Shown one piece after another: positions 4,287 through 36,347 of a stretch of 64,000 nt of DNA (the first letter of the stretch is position 1; each line of letters begins with the position of its first letter). The stretch lies in contig CAMKQH010000017.1 of NCBI GenBank assembly GCA_946414885.1, forward strand, positions 1-64,000, read 5' to 3'. Source of the DNA: an uncultured Lachnospiraceae bacterium. Its GTDB lineage: Bacteria; Bacillota; Clostridia; Lachnospirales; Lachnospiraceae. The notes below the pieces were generated by a model. It had not been told where the DNA came from and made no database searches. It saw nothing but the letters and a program-made list of their open reading frames with translations. Made by a program: the position numbers and the translations under genes.

Positions 4287-7200
4287 TCACTCGTCTCCGT
4301 CGTCATAGGAATCATCGGCATAATCATCGTCAAACGCGAAATCGCCTTCCGGCTCAGCGTCTACAAACTCGCCGTCCTCACTGAATTCCTTGGTCTGATA
4401 TCCCATGGCACCAAGCGAATTAGCATCATAATCGTTATATTTGCGGTCATCATCAAGATCAAAGCGATAATCGGTGTCACCGTAATCGATGTTCTCCATG
4501 ATCTGGACTTCCTCGCCGTCCTCGCCCAGGACTCTGACGTCAAGTCCAAGAGCCTGCAGCTCTTTCAGGAGCACCTTAAAGGACTCAGGAATGCCTGCGG
4601 GAGGAATGTTGTCTCCCTTAATGATCGCTTCGTAGGTCTTTACGCGTCCGATCACGTCATCGGACTTCACGGTCAGGATTTCCTGCAGGGTATAGGATGC
4701 GCCATATGCCTCCAGGGCCCAAACTTCCATCTCTCCGAAACGCTGTCCGCCGAACTGTGCCTTACCACCCAAAGGCTGCTGGGTAACCAGGGAGTACGGG
4801 CCGGTAGAACGAGCATGGATCTTATCGTCTACCAGGTGATGGAGCTTCAGGTAATGCATGTGACCGATGGTTACGGGGCTGTCGAAGAACTCACCCGTAC
4901 GACCGTCGCGGAGACGAACCTTACCGTCTCTGGAGATCGGAACGCCCTTCCAAAGCTTTCTGTGATCCCTGTTCTCGGACAGATATTCCAGAACCTCGGG
5001 CAGAAGCTCTGCCTTGTGCTTGCTCTCGAAGGTCTCGCCCTTCCATTCCTTGCCGTCAGCGGTGGTGGTCAGGCCGTCTGCCTTCCACTGCTTTGCCTCA
5101 GCGGCATCGAAAGGAAGGTTAGCGTAATCGTTGGCCAGATCCAGCGTATCCATAATGTCGTGCTCGTTAGCGCCGTCGAATACGGGGGTAGCCACGTTAA
5201 ATCCAAGTGCTTTTGCAGCCAGGGAGAGATGGATCTCCAACACCTGACCGATGTTCATACGGGAAGGCACGCCCAGAGGATTCAGCACGATGTCCAGAGG
5301 ACGTCCGTTGGGCAGATAAGGCATATCCTCAACGGGAAGCACGCGGGAAACGACACCCTTGTTACCGTGACGACCTGCCATCTTGTCACCGACGGAGATC
5401 TTTCTCTTCTGTGCGATGTAAATGCGAACGGTCTGGTTTACGCCGGGGGACAGCTCGTCGCTGTTCTCGCGGGTAAATACCTTCGCGTCAACTACAATGC
5501 CATACTCACCGTGAGGTACCTTCAGGGAAGTGTCACGCACTTCTCTTGCCTTCTCGCCGAAGATGGCGCGAAGAAGTCTCTCCTCTGCGGTCAGCTCGGT
5601 CTCGCCCTTAGGCGTTACCTTACCAACAAGGATGTCGCCTGCGCGAACCTCTGCGCCGATGCGGATGATTCCGCGATCGTCCAGATCCTTCAGTGCGTCA
5701 TCGCCGACGCCGGGAACGTCTCTGGTGATCTCCTCGGGTCCGAGCTTCGTATCACGGGCCTCTGCCTCATATTCCTCAATATGTACGGAAGTGTATACGT
5801 CCTCCTGTACGAGTCTCTCGGAAAGCAGAACTGCGTCCTCGTAGTTGTAACCCTCCCAAGTCATGAAACCGATCAGAGGGTTCTTACCAAGTGCCAGCTC
5901 GCCCTGGGAAGTGGAAGGACCGTCAGCGATGACCTGTCCTGCCTCCACGTGCTCACCCTTGAAGACGATGGGCTTCTGGTTATAACAGTTAGACTGGTTG
6001 GAGCGGGCGAACTTCGTCAAATGATATTCTTCGCTCCCCTTGTCATCATAATTAATGCGGATCATGTTGGATGCCACGTAATCCACGGTGCCGGCCTTCT
6101 TAGCCACTACGCACACGCCGGAGTCTACGGCAGTCTTTACTTCCATGCCGGTGCCGACAACGGGTGCTTCGGTGAGAAGCAGGGGCACTGCCTGACGCTG
6201 CATGTTGGATCCCATCAGCGCACGGTTAGCATCGTCGTTCTCAAGGAACGGGATCAGAGCCGTTGCAACGGAGAATACCATCTTAGGAGACACGTCCATG
6301 TAGTCAAACATTGCCTTGGGATATGCCTGGGTCTCCTCGCGGAAACGACCGGATACCATGTTGTTCACGAAATGTCCGTTCTCGTCCAAGGGCTCGTTTG
6401 CCTGAGCTACGTGATAGTTGTCCTCTTCGTCAGCAGTCATGTAGATAACTTCATCCGTTACGCGGGGGTTCTTCGGATCGCTCTTGTCGATCTTACGGTA
6501 AGGAGCCTCCACGAAGCCATATTCATTAATTCTTGCATAGCTTGCAAGAGAGTTGATCAAACCGATGTTAGGACCTTCAGGCGTCTCAATGGGGCACATT
6601 CTTCCATAATGAGAGTAATGTACGTCACGCACCTCGAATCCGGCACGGTCTCTGGACAGACCGCCAGGTCCCAATGCGGAAAGACGTCTCTTGTGGGTCA
6701 GCTCACCCAGGGGGTTGTTCTGATCCATGAACTGGGACAGCTGGGAGCTTCCGAAGAACTCCTTAACTGCGGCAGTTACGGGCTTAATGTTGATCAGATT
6801 CTGGAGGGAAATCTCCTCCGTGTCATGGGTGGTCATGCGCTCGCGCACCACTCTTTCCATTCTGGAAAGGCCGATGCGGTACTGGTTCTGCAGGAGTTCA
6901 CCAACGGCACGGATACGTCTGTTGCCAAGGTGATCGATGTCGTCATCCTTGCCCAGACCATACTCCAAATGCATGTTATAGTTGATGGACGCGAAAATGT
7001 CCTCGACGGTGATGTGCTTGGGAACCAGCTCGTGCACGTTTTTCTGCAGGGCGTCACCAAGCTTCTCGGGATCGTCGCCAAACTCGTCCAAGATCTTTTG
7101 AAGCACGGGATAATAAACCAGCTCGTGAATGCCGAAATCTCTGGGATCACAATCCACGAAGTTGGTAAGATTTACCATCATGTTGGAAAGAACCTTAACG

Positions 7201-17015: not shown

Positions 17016-17603
17016 TTATTCTTCTCCCGCGACGTCGACCAGCTTTCCCTTTCTCGCGGGAATCTCCATTCCAAACAATCCCCTAAGAACGTAGCTGACC
17101 TCTCCGTAAACGCCGGTCTTTTCCACGGGTATTCCGTTTGGAGCCAACACTTCCCCTTTCCTTCCCGTGACCGTCTCTTCCCTTCCTCCGTCCAGCCTGC
17201 GGCTTACGACCACTTCCCCCGTGACGTTATAGACGGTGTAGTTTTCAACCGTGACCATTCCGGAAATCAGCCTTTGATTTTCGCATTCCCATGCCTCATT
17301 CAATCCGAGATTTGCCTTGAGCGCCTCGCGGTATCTTTCATATGCCTCCCTGTCATCCGCGATCCTTACCGCGTGCGTCCTTCCATATTCCCGGACGTCG
17401 ATCAGTGCCGACGCAAGGCCGGATGCTGCCAGCGCATCCTCCAGATAGCGGCTTGAGGACCGGATCATCTCCATCTGCAAGAATCCGAAGAGCAACACGC
17501 CCAAAAACAGAATAAAAAATAAGCTTGCGCAAAGCGTAACCTGTCCTCCGTCCCCGCTTACGTTAATGCTTTGCCGTTGAGACCCTCGTCTCCTCCACTT
17601 CAT
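17016..17603 (-). CDS. TadE/TadG-like pseudopilin
   Basis: Short N-terminus, GDGGQVTLCASLFFILFLGVLLFGFLQMEM TM; operon context. Confidence 0.55.
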   Translation of the reverse strand: MKWRRRGSQRQSINVSGDGGQVTLCASLFFILFLGVLLFGFLQMEMIRSSSRYLEDALAASGLASALIDVREYGRTHAVRIADDREAYERYREALKANLGLNEAWECENQRLISGMVTVENYTVYNVTGEVVVSRRLDGGREETVTGRKGEVLAPNGIPVEKTGVYGEVSYVLRGLFGMEIPARKGKLVDVAGEE

Positions 17604-17967
17604 ACTTTCCGTCCACCTTCCCCGTGATCATCAGCCGGATCCGCGCACCGTAACCGACCGGCGCCTTCGTCGTTCCCTCCAGGCTGACGTTCTGAATCCC
17701 CTGCACCTCCAATTCCTTTCGGAGAAGCTCTTCGTCCGCATCCGTGAGATACCCGACCGTCTCCATGCGAAGCACGTAATTTCTTGCCAGTTGCCCCATT
17801 TCCGTCTTCTTGTTGACTAGCCGGACGCAGTCCATAAAGTAAGTCATGACCGTCACCATGGCCAAAATGCAGATTCCGACGGACAGGAGGTCGCCTATGC
17901 TCCCCTCCTGCCCCGGAATCCTTTTTTGTGCCGCCAATTTCCTTCGAAGAAGGCCCATGCGGCTCAC
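17563..17967 (-). CDS. TadE-like / DUF4320-type pseudopilin
   Basis: QEGSIGDLLSVGICILAMVTVMTYFMDC TM; overlaps the next gene by 41 bp in the operon. Confidence 0.5.
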   Translation of the reverse strand: MSRMGLLRRKLAAQKRIPGQEGSIGDLLSVGICILAMVTVMTYFMDCVRLVNKKTEMGQLARNYVLRMETVGYLTDADEELLRKELEVQGIQNVSLEGTTKAPVGYGARIRLMITGKVDGKYEVEETRVSTAKH

Positions 17968-17970
17968 CTC

Positions 17971-18276
17971 CTAGGTCCTGGTTCCGGACAAGATGTTAGT
18001 TGCTTCCCTTGTCATGGACGCCACAATGGATTTGATAAATTCCGAAAGGCTGTTCTTCATAACAACGCACAGAAGAAGCGCGATAATACAAAGTCCCACG
18101 GTCACCAATATGCCGTCGATGCCGGGATCCGTCGCCATTCCCCTTTCCTTTACTGCCACCGCCCTTCTTGCCAGGGCCTCCCTTGTCCGTCGCCATCCCG
18201 CATACGTGGCAGCTCCCAGCCTGCTGCCCAAAAGCCAAAGCTTCAAAGTCTCCAAAATCTCCATGATTTCCTTCAT
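17971..18276 (-). CDS. Flp1-like pilin domain protein
   Basis: GMATDPGIDGILVTVGLCIIALLLCVVMKNSLSEFIKSI; location in Tad operon. Confidence 0.5.
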   Translation of the reverse strand: MKEIMEILETLKLWLLGSRLGAATYAGWRRTREALARRAVAVKERGMATDPGIDGILVTVGLCIIALLLCVVMKNSLSEFIKSIVASMTREATNILSGTRT

Positions 18277-18339
18277 ATCGTAATCCTCCTTATATATGAT
18301 TGTCTTGTTGTTTTCCAGCTTAAGTCCTTCCCCTCACGC

Positions 18340-19176
18340 CTAGAAGTGCAAGGCCGCCGCAAACATTTGCGTCACGCAGGCATACAGGATCACTCCCATG
18401 ATCGCCACGAGGATCCCTAATTGATAAAACGTCACGCTGCGGTCCAGTGCTTCCTTTTTCTGACTCAACACGGATGCCTCCATGTCCTTGATCTGCTCGG
18501 ATAAGTCATTTAGCAGTTCCACGGATAGCCCGGATTCCATCGCCTGCACAATGATCATGCAAAGGGAATCCACATATCTGTTGTCAAACTTTTTCTGAAA
18601 GCTCTCCAGCGCCGCCCCAAGGTCGGAGTGCATCACCAGGTCACCCGAGAGTTCCAAAAGCGCCTGCTTTAGGCGCCGTTCCCGGACGCTACCGTAAAGC
18701 TCGGCCAGGGCATCCGTCACGAACACGCCCGCCCTTGTCTGGATCTCAAGGGAATGGTAAGTATGCTTTAGGTCAGGCAGCATTTTCAGATTATCCTTCG
18801 CATTCACGTAATGGATCAGTCCCCCCGGCAGACAGAAAAAAGCAACCCCCGCCACGATCCCGTACGTTGGCGCCATCACGGAAAACGCCATAAACCCCGC
18901 CGTTCCAAGAAAAATACGGCTAACCTGATATGCCAGCGGTCCAAACTTCTCTCCCACGTGATACCGGGCTCCGTTTCTCGTGAGCCACTGTTGCGTCTTC
19001 TCATACCAAGCCAGGTTTCTTCCCTTCGTCGCCATCCGCTGTATCATTCCGTCAAAGCCCTGGCGCCCGGCGCCCTTCGATAACCCCGTAAGTCCCAGCG
19101 TCATCACCCACGTAAAGGTTATGCCGCAAAGCACCAGCCCGCATATTTCCACTGCATTCATTTCCCTGCCGATCAT
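18340..19176 (-). CDS. tadC: TadC-like type II secretion F-domain protein
   Basis: Multi-TM, T2SSF-like LKQALLELSGDLVMHSDLGAALESFQKKFDNRYVDSLCMIIVQAMESG. Confidence 0.8.
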   Translation of the reverse strand: MIGREMNAVEICGLVLCGITFTWVMTLGLTGLSKGAGRQGFDGMIQRMATKGRNLAWYEKTQQWLTRNGARYHVGEKFGPLAYQVSRIFLGTAGFMAFSVMAPTYGIVAGVAFFCLPGGLIHYVNAKDNLKMLPDLKHTYHSLEIQTRAGVFVTDALAELYGSVRERRLKQALLELSGDLVMHSDLGAALESFQKKFDNRYVDSLCMIIVQAMESGLSVELLNDLSEQIKDMEASVLSQKKEALDRSVTFYQLGILVAIMGVILYACVTQMFAAALHF

Positions 19177-30127: not shown

Positions 30128-31207
30128 TCAATTGATGCTCTCCAAAACGTATTGTAACACGCTCTTCCTGTCCGTGACAATCTTTACTTGACAGAAAAGT
30201 CCGCTCATCAGGGAAATCGTCTCGCCTTTCTTGTTGGTCAGCGTTGTCGCGTCACAGTCGATCCAGACCGGGAAATAAGACATGCCGCTGTTTTGGTCAA
30301 ATTCCGCCTCCTTGGCAATCTTGCAGATGCGTCCGGTGAGGGTTCCGTATTCCGTGGAGGGGAAGGCTCCAATCTCAAACTTTACTTCCTGCCCCTCGCG
30401 GATCTTTCCAATATCAGTGTTCAGCACAATAGCCTGCGCCTGAAAGGTCTTTTGTTGTTCCGGATAAATTTGGCCAACCTGGCTGTCGGCATACAGGATC
30501 CCGCCAGTTTCTAATTTGTCTGATGCGTAAAAGTACCCATCGTCTTTCGCGCGAATGACAAATTTACCATTGACAAAATCTTCCGCAGCAATGCCCTGGG
30601 TAAGTTCCCGATACTCCTCTTCCAGCGTTTGGAGTTCCTTTTGCACGCTTGACTTTTCATTCAAAACGCTACGCGCAAACGTGATCTTGTCAGTCTTGAC
30701 CTCTTCCAACTGAAGGAGAAAAAGTTTTTTCCGGATCTGGAATTCTTCAAAAAAGAGGTTGTCCTTCATGGCGTCAAGCTGCGCCGCGTCAAGCTCCTCC
30801 ATCGTCACCGCGTCGCCATTCAAAAACCCGTTATATACCTTCAGAATGGCCAGATGCTCCTGCGCTTTCCGCAGCTTTTCATAATCATCATTCATGCCAT
30901 TGTCATTTGACAGGCTTTCCAATTCCAGCAGCGCGTCACCGCTTTGCACTCTTTGTCCGTCCGAGACGCAAACCTTTGTGATCCTGGCGTTATAGTCACA
31001 ATTCACCGCCACGCGATCCCCCGTATCCAGAATAACGCCGTCGCATTCCGTGACTTCGTCGATCTTGGAAACGGTCATCCACAGAAGGGAGATGATAGTG
31101 ATTCCAAACAAAACGTATACAAATCCCACGATCGCAGGATTTGGTTTTTTCTCATAAATCTCCGTACTTTCCGAGAGATTTTTCATGTCTATTATGATCG
31201 GTTTCAA
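30128..31207 (-). CDS. HlyD-family membrane fusion/accessory protein of a peptide exporter
   Basis: Single N-terminal TM, VNCDYNARITKVCVSDGQRVQSGDALLELES lipoyl-like hairpin; adjacent to C39-ABC exporter. Confidence 0.9.
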   Translation of the reverse strand: MKPIIIDMKNLSESTEIYEKKPNPAIVGFVYVLFGITIISLLWMTVSKIDEVTECDGVILDTGDRVAVNCDYNARITKVCVSDGQRVQSGDALLELESLSNDNGMNDDYEKLRKAQEHLAILKVYNGFLNGDAVTMEELDAAQLDAMKDNLFFEEFQIRKKLFLLQLEEVKTDKITFARSVLNEKSSVQKELQTLEEEYRELTQGIAAEDFVNGKFVIRAKDDGYFYASDKLETGGILYADSQVGQIYPEQQKTFQAQAIVLNTDIGKIREGQEVKFEIGAFPSTEYGTLTGRICKIAKEAEFDQNSGMSYFPVWIDCDATTLTNKKGETISLMSGLFCQVKIVTDRKSVLQYVLESIN

Positions 31208-31211
31208 CTCG

Positions 31212-33413
31212 CTACCCCTCCATGCCGTCGCCCAGAGACTGCTGCCTTACAAGCTCCGCGTATTTTCCATTCATGGCGATCAGTTCCTTGTGCGTTCCCT
31301 CTTCGATGATCCTACCCTTTTGCATGACAAAAATTTTGTCACAATTCTTGATCGTGCTAAGCCGGTGCGCGATAAAGATTGTCGTCACGTCCTTTGCGTA
31401 TTCGTGAATCGTCACGTCCAGCGCCCTTTCCGTAATGGAATCGAGATTGCTGGTCGCCTCGTCAAGGATCAGAACGTCCGGCTTTTTCAACATTGCCCTT
31501 GCAATTGCCAGTCGCTGTCTCTGACCACCGGATAAGTTGGCTCCGTTCTCTTCCAGAAAAGTTTCATATCGAAGCGGGAGCTCGTTGATGAAATCATGGG
31601 CCTGCGCCATCTTGGTCGCTTCCACGACTTCATCCATCGTCACGTCATCCATGCCCAGGGTCAGATTTTCATAGATGGTCCCGCTGAACAAGAAGGTTTC
31701 CTGCGGGATGTAAGCAATTCTTTCACGCAGCGCCTCGATCTGGATGTCTTCAATGCTCCGGTCGCCAATCAGGATCTCGCCTTTTTCCGGCGCATACATG
31801 TGCAAAAGCAGCTTGGAAAGCGTCGTCTTGCCGGAACCGCTTTCTCCCACAAACGCAACGTTGCTTCCCCTTGGAATGTCCAGGGTAATGCTTTCCAACA
31901 CAAGCCGCCTGGTACCATATCGGAAATCCAGATCACGGATCTTTATGTCTCCCTTGAGGGTTTCCGGCACGGCCTTATGCAATTCTCTCTCCGTCTTTTC
32001 TGCCTCCAGGTCAAGGATCTCGCCCAATCTGTCCGCTGCCACCACGGCAGTCTGCATTTGCGGCTGTAAATCGATCAGGTTCTTGATGGGATCCAAAAAG
32101 TATACCAGCAACGCATTGAACGTGATCAGGCCGCCGGCCGTCATTTCGCCGTTGATGACGCTGACCGCGCCAATCCAAAGAATGACCACGCCGCCGATCA
32201 GCTCCACGGTCGTTTTTAATCCTTCCTGGACGTTGCCTACCCAAGAAAGCTTGAAAATGCTTTTCAATAGCCTTACAAATTTGATTTCCGTGTTAAGCTT
32301 TGTCCTGCGCTCCGCATTATAAGCCTTCACCGTCTGAATGCCGTTTAAAGATTCCACCATGTAAGACGTCAGCTGCGCGTTATCCTCCATCACGTGTTCA
32401 TTCAGTTTACGGTACCAGTCCTTAAAGACCAAAACGATAACGGCGTAGAGCACCACCATGACCACCGAAACAAAGAAAAGCTTTACGTTTTGCGTGCATA
32501 AAATGACGGCGCCGGCCACCACCATCAGGGTGTCGATCATGATCGTCAGGGTCGCTCCCGAAATGGCATCCCGGACCTTTCCTGCATCCGTAAAACGGGA
32601 AATGATCTCGCCCACTTTTCTTGTTCCAAAGAAATTCATGGGCAGATCCATGACGTGACGGTAATAACCAAGGAGCAGGGAAATATCGAGCTTTTGGCTC
32701 AGGTACAACATCATGTGCGCCCTGATCATGCCGAGTGCAACCTTAAAAAGACTCAGCAGGATCATGCCGATGGAAAGCGCCGTCAGCGTTTTCATCAAAC
32801 CGCAGGGCAGAACTTTATCGATCAGCGCTTTGAAATAAAAAGCGCCCAACATCCCAAAAAGCGTATAGATCAAAGACGCCAGGAATATATAAAGAAAAAG
32901 ATTCCTTTGAGGCAGCAGAAGATGGAAAAACCGGCTGAATAGCCCCTTGGTCTCCACTCCCTTTTTGAACGTCTCATTTTTTGTTAAAAGAATCAGCACG
33001 CCGCTCCACGCATACTCCGGCGGCCTGTCTTCCGTACCAGTCTCTCCAAAGAATTCCTCTGGTTTTAGTTTTACGATTCCCTTGCCGGGGTCGGCGATCA
33101 CGATCTCTTTTTTAGTGATCTTATGCACCACGACGTAGTGCATAAGATTCCCGTTCACGATCATATGTGCAATGCAGGGGAGTGGAAAATCCGAATAAAA
33201 ATCCTCTTTTTCGCCCTGTACGCCTTTTGCGGTAAAGCCAAGGCTTTCCGCTGCCTTAACCATGCCATACGCATTGGTTCCCTGCGTATCCGTTCCGGCA
33301 ACCTCGCGGATTTTCGTGATTCCAATCTTATATCCATTCTGTTTACAGATCGTTGCCAGACATGCCGCACCGCAGTCCGTTACGTCATGCTGCTTTACGC
33401 AATAATACCTCAT
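31212..33413 (-). CDS. Peptidase-containing ABC transporter (C39 N-terminal domain; bacteriocin/GG-peptide exporter)
   Basis: MRYYCVKQHDVTDCGAACLATICKQNGY (C39 Cys box), HYVVVHKI, Walker A GESGSGKTTLSKLLL, LSGGQRQRLAIARAMLKKPDVLILDEATSNLD. Confidence 0.96.
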   Translation of the reverse strand: MRYYCVKQHDVTDCGAACLATICKQNGYKIGITKIREVAGTDTQGTNAYGMVKAAESLGFTAKGVQGEKEDFYSDFPLPCIAHMIVNGNLMHYVVVHKITKKEIVIADPGKGIVKLKPEEFFGETGTEDRPPEYAWSGVLILLTKNETFKKGVETKGLFSRFFHLLLPQRNLFLYIFLASLIYTLFGMLGAFYFKALIDKVLPCGLMKTLTALSIGMILLSLFKVALGMIRAHMMLYLSQKLDISLLLGYYRHVMDLPMNFFGTRKVGEIISRFTDAGKVRDAISGATLTIMIDTLMVVAGAVILCTQNVKLFFVSVVMVVLYAVIVLVFKDWYRKLNEHVMEDNAQLTSYMVESLNGIQTVKAYNAERRTKLNTEIKFVRLLKSIFKLSWVGNVQEGLKTTVELIGGVVILWIGAVSVINGEMTAGGLITFNALLVYFLDPIKNLIDLQPQMQTAVVAADRLGEILDLEAEKTERELHKAVPETLKGDIKIRDLDFRYGTRRLVLESITLDIPRGSNVAFVGESGSGKTTLSKLLLHMYAPEKGEILIGDRSIEDIQIEALRERIAYIPQETFLFSGTIYENLTLGMDDVTMDEVVEATKMAQAHDFINELPLRYETFLEENGANLSGGQRQRLAIARAMLKKPDVLILDEATSNLDSITERALDVTIHEYAKDVTTIFIAHRLSTIKNCDKIFVMQKGRIIEEGTHKELIAMNGKYAELVRQQSLGDGMEG

Positions 33414-33482
33414 GAATCCCACCCCATACCATTATTCTCTCCGGCGTTAAGCCAGGGAGCTTCGTTTGTTTCCAACCCTTTT

Positions 33483-33632: not shown

Positions 33633-33785
33633 TTAATATGCCTTACCCTTGTAGTAATATCTGATGCCGCTGTTGCTGGATACCTGAACCAGTCTGATGA
33701 GGTTCCAGTTTGCATCATAGCTGGGAACATAGTAGAAACCGCCATTAACGTTCATCATTTCGTTCTCATTCATTACGTTAAACAT
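33633..33785 (-). CDS. 50-aa double-glycine leader peptide (bacteriocin-like or secreted signal)
   Basis: Hand translation MFNVMNENEMMNVNGG|FYYVPSYDANWNLIRLVQVSSNSGIRYYYKGKAY; RBS AAGAGGAGGAAG; leader has G-1 G-2, V-4, M-7, E-8, M-12 as in GG leaders. Confidence 0.88.
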   Translation of the reverse strand: MFNVMNENEMMNVNGGFYYVPSYDANWNLIRLVQVSSNSGIRYYYKGKAY

Positions 33786-33913: not shown

Positions 33914-33990
33914 ATTTTATTATGGGTATCCACCGTTAAAAAATCAACCAGATATGGATGAACGACGTATTTTTTTGATGAACGACGTAT
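33914..33990 (-). promoter_or_regulatory. LytTR-type promoter of the GG peptide: two ATACGTCGTTCATC direct repeats (20-bp period) upstream of CCCATAATAAAAT
   Basis: Plus strand GATGAACGACGTAT at 33957-33970 and 33977-33990; -10-like attttattatggg at 33914-33926. Confidence 0.8.
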
Positions 33991-33995
33991 CGGCT

Positions 33996-34715
33996 CTATT
34001 TATTTCTGTCGATCGTAATTTTTTTGATAAAGGAAAAATATGCTTCTTTTACGCTTTGATAATACTTCCTTCCAATCGGCACGGAGCTGCCATTCGTCAT
34101 CTGCAGCGCCACCCCGATCATTTTCTCAACGTATTGAAGGTTTACCAAATAAGATTTGTGCGTCCGCAACATGGTTGTTCCCTTCATCTGCGCTTCCATG
34201 GCTTTTATGCTGTCATATCCCGTGATCTCATCTTTCTTTGAATAAACGCTGACGTAATTCCCCTGGGCCTGGATAAAAAGAATCTGATCCAGCTTCAAAT
34301 AACAATCTCCGTCTACGGTTTTAAATGAGACGTCAATGTTCTCCCTGTTTTCCCGGACCACGGTCTTAAGGCAGGTTTCCACGCCGATCCTGTCAACAGG
34401 CTTCTCTAAAAAGGCCAGCGTTTTCAGGTCAATGGTTTCCCATCTCAGCTCCTTATGACTTGTCACAAAAACAATCCGCCAGATCCGTTCATTCCCGCGA
34501 ACTTTTTCCATGACCTGAAGGCCATCCATCCCAGGCATTTCAATGTCGAGAAAGAGCAAATGAATCTTATCGCCCTGATAGGCAAGCACTTCTTCCCCGG
34601 ACGCAAACTCTATGAATTGACATTCTTGATTTTGCGCATCCAAAAAAGAACCACATAGTTTTTTTACGTGGTCACGATACGCTTCTTCGTCATCGCATAT
34701 GCCAATGGTGATCAT
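33996..34715 (-). CDS. LytTR-family response regulator
   Basis: MITIGICDDEEAYRDHV receiver; LLFLDIEMPGMDGLQVM; LytTR domain ILFIQAQGNYVSVYSKKDEITGYDSIKAMEAQMKGTTMLRTHKSYLVNLQYVEKM. Start trimmed to the ATG behind GGAGGGGGAA. Confidence 0.95.
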   Translation of the reverse strand: MITIGICDDEEAYRDHVKKLCGSFLDAQNQECQFIEFASGEEVLAYQGDKIHLLFLDIEMPGMDGLQVMEKVRGNERIWRIVFVTSHKELRWETIDLKTLAFLEKPVDRIGVETCLKTVVRENRENIDVSFKTVDGDCYLKLDQILFIQAQGNYVSVYSKKDEITGYDSIKAMEAQMKGTTMLRTHKSYLVNLQYVEKMIGVALQMTNGSSVPIGRKYYQSVKEAYFSFIKKITIDRNK

Positions 34716-34802
34716 TTCCCCCTCCGCGCCAATAGAATTCCTTTCTTTTATTCTACATGATAAGAGGGAAAAACAAAAGACTTTTTCAAAATTGCGCAAT
34801 TT

Positions 34803-34833
34803 AAAAACACCACTTATTATAAGTGATGTTTTT
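34803..34833. terminator. Bidirectional terminator-like hairpin between 25-aa peptide and response regulator
   Basis: AAAAACACCACTTATTATAAGTGATGTTTTT. Confidence 0.8.
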
Positions 34834-34871: not shown

Positions 34872-34949
34872 TTATTTTCCTCCCCCCAGAAGAATCCACA
34901 AAAGCTCCCACCAATCGAGCTGAGCCGAAATAATGCTTTCACCAAACAT
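34872..34949 (-). CDS. 25-aa Trp-rich peptide, candidate signal or leader peptide
   Basis: Hand translation MFGESIISAQLDWWELLWILLGGGK; purine-rich RBS GGGGGATGAGG; own LytTR-type promoter upstream and terminator downstream. Confidence 0.65.
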   Translation of the reverse strand: MFGESIISAQLDWWELLWILLGGGK

Positions 34950-34972
34950 CGTTCCTCATCCCCCTTTTTACA

Positions 34973-35049
34973 ATTTTATTATGGGAATGCCCCAAGAAAA
35001 AATCAATAAAATTTGGATGAACGACGTTTTTTTTTGATGAACGACGTTT
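34973..35049 (-). promoter_or_regulatory. LytTR-type promoter of the 25-aa peptide: two AAACGTCGTTCATC direct repeats upstream of CCCATAATAAAAT
   Basis: Plus strand GATGAACGACGTTT at 35016-35029 and 35036-35049; attttattatggg at 34973-34985; same spacing as the site at 33914-33990. Confidence 0.82.
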
Positions 35050-35057
35050 TTTCCTGA

Positions 35058-36347
35058 TCAAAGGATGATTTCCACGGTGAAAACGCCCTGTTCCACGCTC
35101 TTATGAAATTCACCATGAACTTTATCAACGGTATTCTGGATATTCAGCAGTCCAAACCCATGATTCTGAAAATCACTCTTTGTGGTTCCATAATGACTCT
35201 TCGGCTCTAAATTCTGCCGACAAGAATTTGAAATGCGAATGCATATCCGATCACGGAAAGTGCCGCAAGAAATCTGGATTTTTTTCTCCCTGCCCTCCTC
35301 CACTTGTCTCGTTGCTTCAACCGCATTACTCAAGAGATTGGAAAAGATGACGCAGAGATCAAAAACTTCCAGTTCCGTATGTCCAAGAAATCCACCGTCC
35401 CATTCCCATTGAACGCCTTCTTCCATCGCTTTCTGATGCCATTCGCTGATGATCGCATCCACGGCTCCCACGCCGGTAAACTTTTGAACCTCAAGCTTTC
35501 GCGTTTCCGCACGCATTCGCTCGACGTAGGACTTTAATTGCGGCAAGTCATTTGTTTGAATGCACTGCTCCAATGCCGTCAGATGAGCATTTATGTCATG
35601 GCGAAACCTTCGGATTTTCTGGTCACTTTCCATGATTTCCTTGATATGCGCCTCTTGCCTTTTCAGCGCCAGCTGATAGTACTCATTTTCCATCTTATAT
35701 TGCATGGCATGATTTTCAATGCTGGTTTGCCAGAAGATCAGAATGACAAAAATAAGCCCAACAATTACCCAACAAATGGACAATTGCAACGTCCAGTCGG
35801 AAAACTCCGTTTTTCCTTCCATCACTCCCTGCGATACCGCAATGATGACAAACAGACATCCCGCGCCCACAAGGGCAATCGCGTACTGTGGAATGCCGAA
35901 CCTCACCATCTCTCCCTCTACGCGTAGTCCTTTGAAAAGGAGAAAGAATATAAAGAATAAGAACGGGAAAAAAAACTGCATCAACAGACTCCATAAATTG
36001 GAATCGATAAAAGCCTGGTATGGGATCTTAAACACGAATGTCATAAGATAACTGCCCAAAATGTTGACCGCGCCCGGGACAAAAAAAACCATGGGAGACA
36101 GTAAAAGCGCCGTGATGCGCTTTTCTTTTACGAGAATGATGAGCGCCAAAATGGTAACGATGGTTATGCCTGGTCCCTTAAATGCGAACTCACCGGTCAA
36201 GTACATTGCCAAAACCAACAGGCAGGAACCGCCGATCACGGCAACCGATAATTTTGCGTTCCTATGAAATGGCACGCGCAAAATCCATCTGTAAACGACG
36301 TAATAGTTTAGAAATGCCATCAGAAAACTCGCAACCCACACAATCAT
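35058..36347 (-). CDS. GHKL-domain sensor histidine kinase (AgrC-like)
   Basis: Multi-TM N-terminus; RRFRHDINAHLTALEQCI, FSNLLSNAVEATRQ, HGFGLLNIQNTVDKVHG. Confidence 0.93.
   Translation of the reverse strand: MIVWVASFLMAFLNYYVVYRWILRVPFHRNAKLSVAVIGGSCLLVLAMYLTGEFAFKGPGITIVTILALIILVKEKRITALLLSPMVFFVPGAVNILGSYLMTFVFKIPYQAFIDSNLWSLLMQFFFPFLFFIFFLLFKGLRVEGEMVRFGIPQYAIALVGAGCLFVIIAVSQGVMEGKTEFSDWTLQLSICWVIVGLIFVILIFWQTSIENHAMQYKMENEYYQLALKRQEAHIKEIMESDQKIRRFRHDINAHLTALEQCIQTNDLPQLKSYVERMRAETRKLEVQKFTGVGAVDAIISEWHQKAMEEGVQWEWDGGFLGHTELEVFDLCVIFSNLLSNAVEATRQVEEGREKKIQISCGTFRDRICIRISNSCRQNLEPKSHYGTTKSDFQNHGFGLLNIQNTVDKVHGEFHKSVEQGVFTVEIIL

Follow-up and report, generated by a model that had tools for sequence, protein, structure and literature searches.

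Gut and rumen Lachnospiraceae encode many AgrC-like kinases whose ligands are not known. The window, i.e., the whole stretch of 64,000 nucleotides analysed here, comes from a rumen Lachnospiraceae bacterium, and in it a Trp-rich open reading frame (ORF) of 25 codons starts 108 bases 3′ of the gene of such an AgrC-like GHKL kinase. The locus raises the question of whether this frame is a gene and, if so, whether its product could be the signal sensed by the neighbouring kinase. The reading that we prefer, with a probability of about 0.75, is that the ORF encodes a leaderless linear autoinducer, which would be sensed by the adjacent kinase and would switch on itself and genes of secreted peptides via a LytTR regulator.

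Organisation of the locus

The elements of the locus follow one another on the minus strand in the order kinase, repeat pair, −10 hexamer, ribosome-binding site, 25-aa ORF, hairpin, LytTR regulator, second repeat pair, double-glycine peptide, C39 exporter and HlyD-like protein. The AgrC/HPK10-like sensor histidine kinase (429 aa, positions 35,058–36,347), which is the likely receptor, was recognised by a match to Pfam HATPase_c_5 (2.4e-21) and a weak match to the AgrC model (2.1e-13). It comprises a multi-pass membrane sensor half, as follows from the hydropathy peaks in residues 1–205, the phospho-acceptor motif FRHD and a GHKL ATPase domain.

A direct repeat of two 12-bp copies of ACGTCGTTCATC with a 20-bp period (35,016–35,047) is the predicted site of the LytTR regulator in the peptide promoter, and counterpart repeats are located 3′ of the kinase gene in relatives. 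The −10-like hexamer CATAAT (34,978–34,983) and the ribosome-binding site AAAAAGGGGGATGAGG (GGGGGATGAGG; 34,953–34,968) were recognised in the sequence; an equivalent Shine–Dalgarno (SD) sequence is present in all 31 kinase–peptide pairs described below. The ORF itself (34,872–34,949) runs from ATG to TAA and encodes the leaderless peptide MFGESIISAQLDWWELLWILLGGGK, the N-terminus of which is variable and the DWWELLxxLLG core of which is conserved. Just downstream lies a hairpin resembling an intrinsic terminator, ACATCACTTATAATAAGTGGTGT followed by TTTTT (34,802–34,829), which is also found in the related locus L032 with a compensated stem. The promoter and the terminator that the original prediction ascribed to the ORF can both be recognised in these elements.

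The LytTR response regulator (239 aa, 33,996–34,715) matches Pfam Response_reg (8.4e-14) and LytTR (9.7e-19). The repeat-pair scan revealed a second copy of the ACGTCGTTCATC pair (33,957–33,988), which is the predicted promoter of a 50-aa peptide with a double-glycine leader (MFNVMNENEMMNVNGG/FYYVPSYD..., 33,633–33,785). This peptide is a putative bacteriocin and the proposed target of the circuit; its leader matches TIGR03949 just under the cut-off (3.3e-4), and its relatives stand 3′ of matching repeats in other genomes. Further along are the genes of a C39-peptidase ABC exporter (736 aa, 31,212–33,422; TIGR01193, 3e-209; Peptidase_C39, 3.4e-36) and of an HlyD-type membrane fusion protein (359 aa, 30,128–31,207), the latter assigned by profile matches.

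Conservation of the tiny peptide genes

The ORF is conserved in relatives whose kinases range from 99% to about 24% identity; MFGGGIIQAQLDWWQLLWILLGGGN, for example, occupies the equivalent position in a relative whose kinase is 80% identical. A scan of the genome collection with five kinases as queries yielded 32 loci. In the close-kinase set of 24 loci (L031–L055 minus the truncated L050), a tiny ORF was found directly 3′ of the kinase in 20, and three others (L047, L051 and L053) possess the repeats and no recognisable tiny ORF. In the remaining locus, L039 (genome G564), the peptide gene, encoding MQKLNDKGFILYDYDFWEWLRHILGIPTN, has moved to a position 3′ of the regulator, where it has a repeat pair of its own and keeps the core YDFWEWLRHILGIPTN.

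The collection scan, together with genus and family searches, provided 31 Lachnospiraceae kinase–tiny-peptide pairs, all of which share a common build: the kinase stop codon, 105–193 bases with repeats, an SD sequence and an ORF of 10–36 aa. The encoded peptides, including MNGKNVRLTDGDWWEWLWNLLNGGKS, MNDRNVILREYDFWDWFCHLFGING, MMGYIVATFNWWELLKKFLG, MIASIDWSWLWKLFG and MFDIWKWLFG, have variable N-termini, no leader and a C-terminal core like [DN][WFIL]W[ED][WL]Lxx[IL]LG, in which LLG or LFG comes after [DN][WFIL]W[ED][WL]L. The motif W.?W or FW.W is present in 24/31 peptides and is followed by a tail longer than that of XIP; in relatives, Trp is swapped for Phe, Leu or Ile, or is absent (L007 and L080). 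Cys is not conserved across the 31 peptides; the earlier remark on the lack of Cys is correct for the 25-mer and does not extend to the relatives, some of which contain it. The claimed absence of a GG leader was checked for the 25-mer and holds. A hidden leader was considered, as E, L and I stand at leader-like spacing before LG, yet no core follows and the shorter members stop there, and the likeness was put down to coincidence.

The conservation and dN/dS analysis proposed in the original prediction turned out in favour of the ORF: the amino acid core is conserved, and a dN/dS of about 0.20, pooled over four pairs, indicates that the peptide is under purifying selection. L031 is the nearest neighbour of the window locus, its kinase being identical in 421 of 424 residues, and residues 4, 7 and 8, all three replaced, are the only ones at which the two peptides differ. 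When L032 is included, the peptide changes are likewise all replacements, mostly in residues 4–8. Since the changes relative to L031 all fall at residues 4, 7 and 8, the N-terminal third appears to be free to vary and the core fixed, i.e., the two parts are evidently not under the same constraint.

The specificity of the association was assessed with 349 other genes within the same loci, which were checked for tiny SD-preceded ORFs behind them. Such ORFs were found behind 22 of these genes, and the W.?W/FW.W motif behind one. This sole motif-bearing ORF, MLDDLWKWLFG in L027, itself lies 3′ of a GHKL kinase. A profile made from 20 peptides was also run blind across 138 genomes. It gave eight matches at E < 1e-4, each of them directly 3′ of such a kinase, and a ninth (E 0.0014) behind a kinase remnant, repeat pair and SD sequence. 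Four weak matches (E 0.009–0.05), inside or beside unrelated genes, were taken as chance. The scan of viral contigs with the kinase alignment found no relatives. In favour of a frame that is open by chance are its length of only 25 codons and its absence behind three close kinases, but the blind profile matches, the conserved core, the dN/dS value and the constant SD sequence and spacing make this very improbable. The predicted Trp-rich ORF between the kinase and the regulator is real in the sense of an ATG...TAA reading frame conserved in relatives. The 25-mer is one of a large and apparently undescribed family of unusually small, signal-like peptides that gut Lachnospiraceae encode in ORFs shorter than most gene callers accept.

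Several loci deserve a separate mention. In L027 (genome G028, reverse strand, 17,096–18,600), the second GHKL kinase stands about 13 kb from the first and is followed by the 11-aa MLDDLWKWLFG; the RiPP-like cluster between the two kinases may be under two tiny-peptide circuits. L223 (G118:C127:24512) contains an intact WWEWLWNLLNGGG peptide with repeats and a terminator behind an apparent C-terminal kinase remnant, and this peptide is a possible orphan signal. In L072 (genome G114), an in-frame stop codon follows the first three codons of the tiny ORF 3′ of the kinase, MFL*INIVGVFEWFFEKIDKKA; either the peptide gene has decayed or the sequence contains an error. L043 and L044 share an identical kinase–peptide stretch in metagenome-assembled genomes labelled Paludibacteraceae and Lachnospiraceae, respectively; the former label probably reflects a mistake in binning or labelling.

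Regulon, export genes and the sensor half of the kinase

When up to three mismatches are allowed, the 3.8-Mb genome contains exactly three sites with the pattern ACGTCGTTCATC-N8-ACGTCGTTCATC, and the reversed pattern used as a control gave no matches. The three sites belong to the 25-mer and to two double-glycine (bacteriocin-like) peptides, the 25-mer being the only leaderless and the only kinase-adjacent member of this regulon. The third site (contig C14, locus L025, about 4900–5350) precedes the gene of a double-glycine peptide with Cys (MRKISNETMGKIQGGFTYTTPECGINGC...; MRKISNETMGKIQGG...), behind which lies a separate C39 exporter gene; judging from the repeats, it is a second bacteriocin-like locus under the regulator of the window. 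In 20 further genomes, the same pattern was found at more than 80 sites versus one control match. The genes downstream of the 77 sites examined include those of the tiny peptide, of NGGFYYVP-type double-glycine peptides, which are dispersed and number several per genome, and of Sec-type secreted proteins or lipoproteins. Of 74 regulon promoters, 55 carry an ATAATG-like hexamer at a constant distance of 62–64 bases to the first repeat. The predicted LytTR direct repeats precede both the candidate inducer and the bacteriocin-like genes. Small Gly/Ala/Cys-rich ORFs of the MAGTICAGTCGILGLSGCVVGCLAIFGTTSAPAGIGCVASATAGATSSAIISS type were observed behind repeat sites in two genomes (L138 and L160) and possibly constitute a further family of bacteriocin or RiPP precursors under such circuits.

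The genome of the window encodes a second kinase (G000 contig C5, locus L199, 3941–6930; kinase at 5469–6737), accompanied by repeats GTTGGCGAC, the peptide MYFSKGDEYKGAGELIAFIMFVFKFLTW, a terminator and, behind another, related repeat copy, the gene of a secreted protein. The combination of different repeats with a different peptide fits the expectation for insulated circuits.

The C39 peptidase is missing from 6/27 genomes carrying the kinase–peptide pair, and C39 export was rejected as a general requirement for this reason. AgrB processing was rejected likewise: AgrB is missing from 13/24 genomes (the nine YDFW-type genomes are all among them) and was not found at the locus of the window. 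In genome G011 (L032/L002), the double-glycine gene, the C39 exporter gene and most of the HlyD gene 3′ of the regulator have been deleted, leaving an HlyD scar. No C39 peptidase is encoded genome-wide there, and the kinase, the peptide and the regulator are intact and other repeat sites are present. Neither a signal peptide nor a dedicated exporter or processing enzyme was identified for the tiny peptides.

With the catalytic half and the regulator controlled for, the distance between peptides correlates with that between the sensor halves of the kinases (residues 1–205) at a partial r of 0.73 (0/2000 permutations), although such permutation tests remove common descent only in part and evolution is faster in the sensor half. 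The partial r is 0.75 for the peptide core alone, and the corresponding values for the catalytic half and the regulator are negative. In a ten-locus control, the double-glycine core gave 0.10 (638/2000) versus 0.65 (4/2000) for the tiny peptide. That two peptides encoded at the same loci differ in this way argues in favour of the tiny peptide and the kinase as ligand and receptor, and the double-glycine peptide, which does not covary with the sensor half, was rejected as the inducer.

Proposed role of the peptide and comparison with known systems

Family-wide adjacency, the shared autoinducible promoter and sensor-half covariation favour the original prediction, in which the neighbouring kinase senses a linear signal. 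From conservation, promoter anatomy, regulon membership and this covariation, which are established from sequence, we infer translation, export, any trimming, binding, and activation rather than inhibition. The ORF would be translated as a leaderless, linear autoinducing peptide leaving the cell through an exporter other than C39 or AgrB. Trimming would possibly leave only the conserved C-terminal part, DWWELL...LLG. Outside the cell, the peptide would bind the neighbouring GHKL kinase at its multi-pass sensor half, and the kinase would phosphorylate the LytTR regulator. The regulator would then bind the direct repeats with the 20-bp period and raise transcription of the peptide gene itself, forming a positive feedback. 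The double-glycine bacteriocin-like peptides of the window locus and of the second locus on contig C14 would be co-induced and, in relatives, other secreted proteins would be induced as well.

The main rival is a peptide that stays in the cell as a membrane-embedded kinase partner or feedback regulator, akin to the small membrane proteins tuning sensor kinases. Neither a leader nor a known exporter accompanies the peptide, it is hydrophobic and neutral to acidic, the gaps in the distribution of C39 (6/27 genomes) and AgrB (13/24) are in line with retention, and covariation with the membrane half is equally compatible with intramembrane contact. However, members of 10–15 residues (MFDIWKWLFG, MYAIDWIDIINKLFG) are too short for a membrane span, and there is no need for a constitutive partner to be expressed from the autoinduced promoter that drives exported bacteriocin-like peptides; we consider such a partner unlikely. 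Another rival makes the peptide a leaderless antimicrobial or surfactant effector, similar to class IId bacteriocins or phenol-soluble modulins, which the LytTR regulator simply controls; the true inducer would then be something else, e.g., the double-glycine peptide. The peptide is indeed leaderless, aromatic and co-regulated with bacteriocin-like genes, and in staphylococci the LytTR regulator AgrA drives leaderless peptides directly. But a cationic or amphipathic helix, as in such membrane-active peptides, is not a consistent feature: the net charge is mostly negative or zero, and the amphipathic moment exceeds that of shuffles (p < 0.1) in only 10/31 peptides. Besides, the tiny peptide is nearly always kinase-adjacent, covaries with the sensor and is retained after loss of the double-glycine locus and C39, whereas the double-glycine peptides are dispersed and do not covary, so an effector role seems quite unlikely.

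It was also proposed that the ORF is a Trp-codon leader peptide, on which ribosome stalling would govern terminator readthrough into the regulator gene. Its three Trp codons, two of them adjacent, and the terminator preceding the regulator gene would suit this mechanism. Nevertheless, the regulator is located 5′ of the kinase in many relatives, where attenuation from the position of the peptide is impossible; the Trp residues are replaced or, in L007 and L080, absent; the G564 peptide gene, which has a separate repeat promoter, lies 3′ of the regulator; and a terminator was not detected behind many family members. The attenuator was, therefore, rejected as scarcely probable.

Under the autoinducer reading, the family probably serves to time the production of antibacterial peptides and other secreted products. 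We are inclined, with somewhat less assurance, to extend it to a widespread quorum-signal class of Lachnospiraceae: AgrC-like kinases would have as cognate ligands leaderless unmodified peptides of 10–36 residues with an aromatic [DN][WFIL]W core and AgrB- and C39-independent export, and a genome would contain several insulated pairs, by which bacteriocins, RiPP clusters and secreted proteins are controlled. Such a peptide would be ready on translation alone, perhaps with trimming. If the ORFs encode the ligands, the signals of many AgrC-like kinases can be read from the genome, synthesised and tested, which would give a handle on the timing of bacteriocin production in abundant gut and rumen Lachnospiraceae. 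Gram-positive peptide signalling would gain a kinase-sensed class needing no leader, AgrB or C39 exporter, and the route of the peptides out of the cell would become a question in itself.

The three-component systems PlnABCD (plantaricin), Blp and Sil share with the locus the GHKL multi-pass kinase, the LytTR regulator, the predicted autoinduction and the direct repeats of fixed spacing before the inducer and double-glycine bacteriocin genes. Their inducer has a double-glycine leader and is exported by C39, whereas the presumed inducer described here is leaderless, 10–36 aa long, encoded 3′ of the kinase and persists without C39. The Agr system (AgrB/AgrD/AgrC/AgrA) is similar in its AgrC-like kinase, LytTR regulator and small kinase-adjacent peptide gene. 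Membership in it was rejected because AgrB is absent at the locus and in the 13/24 genomes, and there is no conserved Cys or Ser ring and no AgrD leader or tail.

The LDWW string had been compared with ComS/XIP, and XIP of S. mutans is GLDWWSL (PMC5131902). RtgS, an Rgg pheromone with Trp-Gly-Trp, belongs to a circuit that has double-glycine peptides and the C39 exporter serving them among its targets (PMC7018657). The likeness, a short leaderless peptide with a WW or WxW core, stands as a resemblance and not as a system: the receptor there is a cytosolic Rgg and here a membrane kinase, and Rgg/ComR (TIGR01716) was found in 0/11 genomes, as the original prediction had it for the locus, so that ComRS membership was rejected. 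Moreover, LLG follows the core here, in place of an end two or three residues after WW. Phenol-soluble modulins under AgrA are likewise leaderless peptides of 20–25 aa directly behind a LytTR-type promoter, but they are not kinase ligands, whereas the present family covaries with the sensor and is inconsistent in amphipathicity. The LytTR Regulatory Systems HdrRM and BrsRM have a membrane inhibitor protein instead of a kinase (PMC6193735); they resemble the locus in the LytTR protein, direct repeats and positive feedback and differ from it in that a kinase is present here.

The literature searched, in which subscription journals and preprints are thinly covered, contained no description of this peptide class. 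The circuit type of peptide, HPK10 kinase, LytTR regulator and bacteriocin is already known, and the new part is, apparently, the leaderless, AgrB- and C39-independent family of aromatic peptides.
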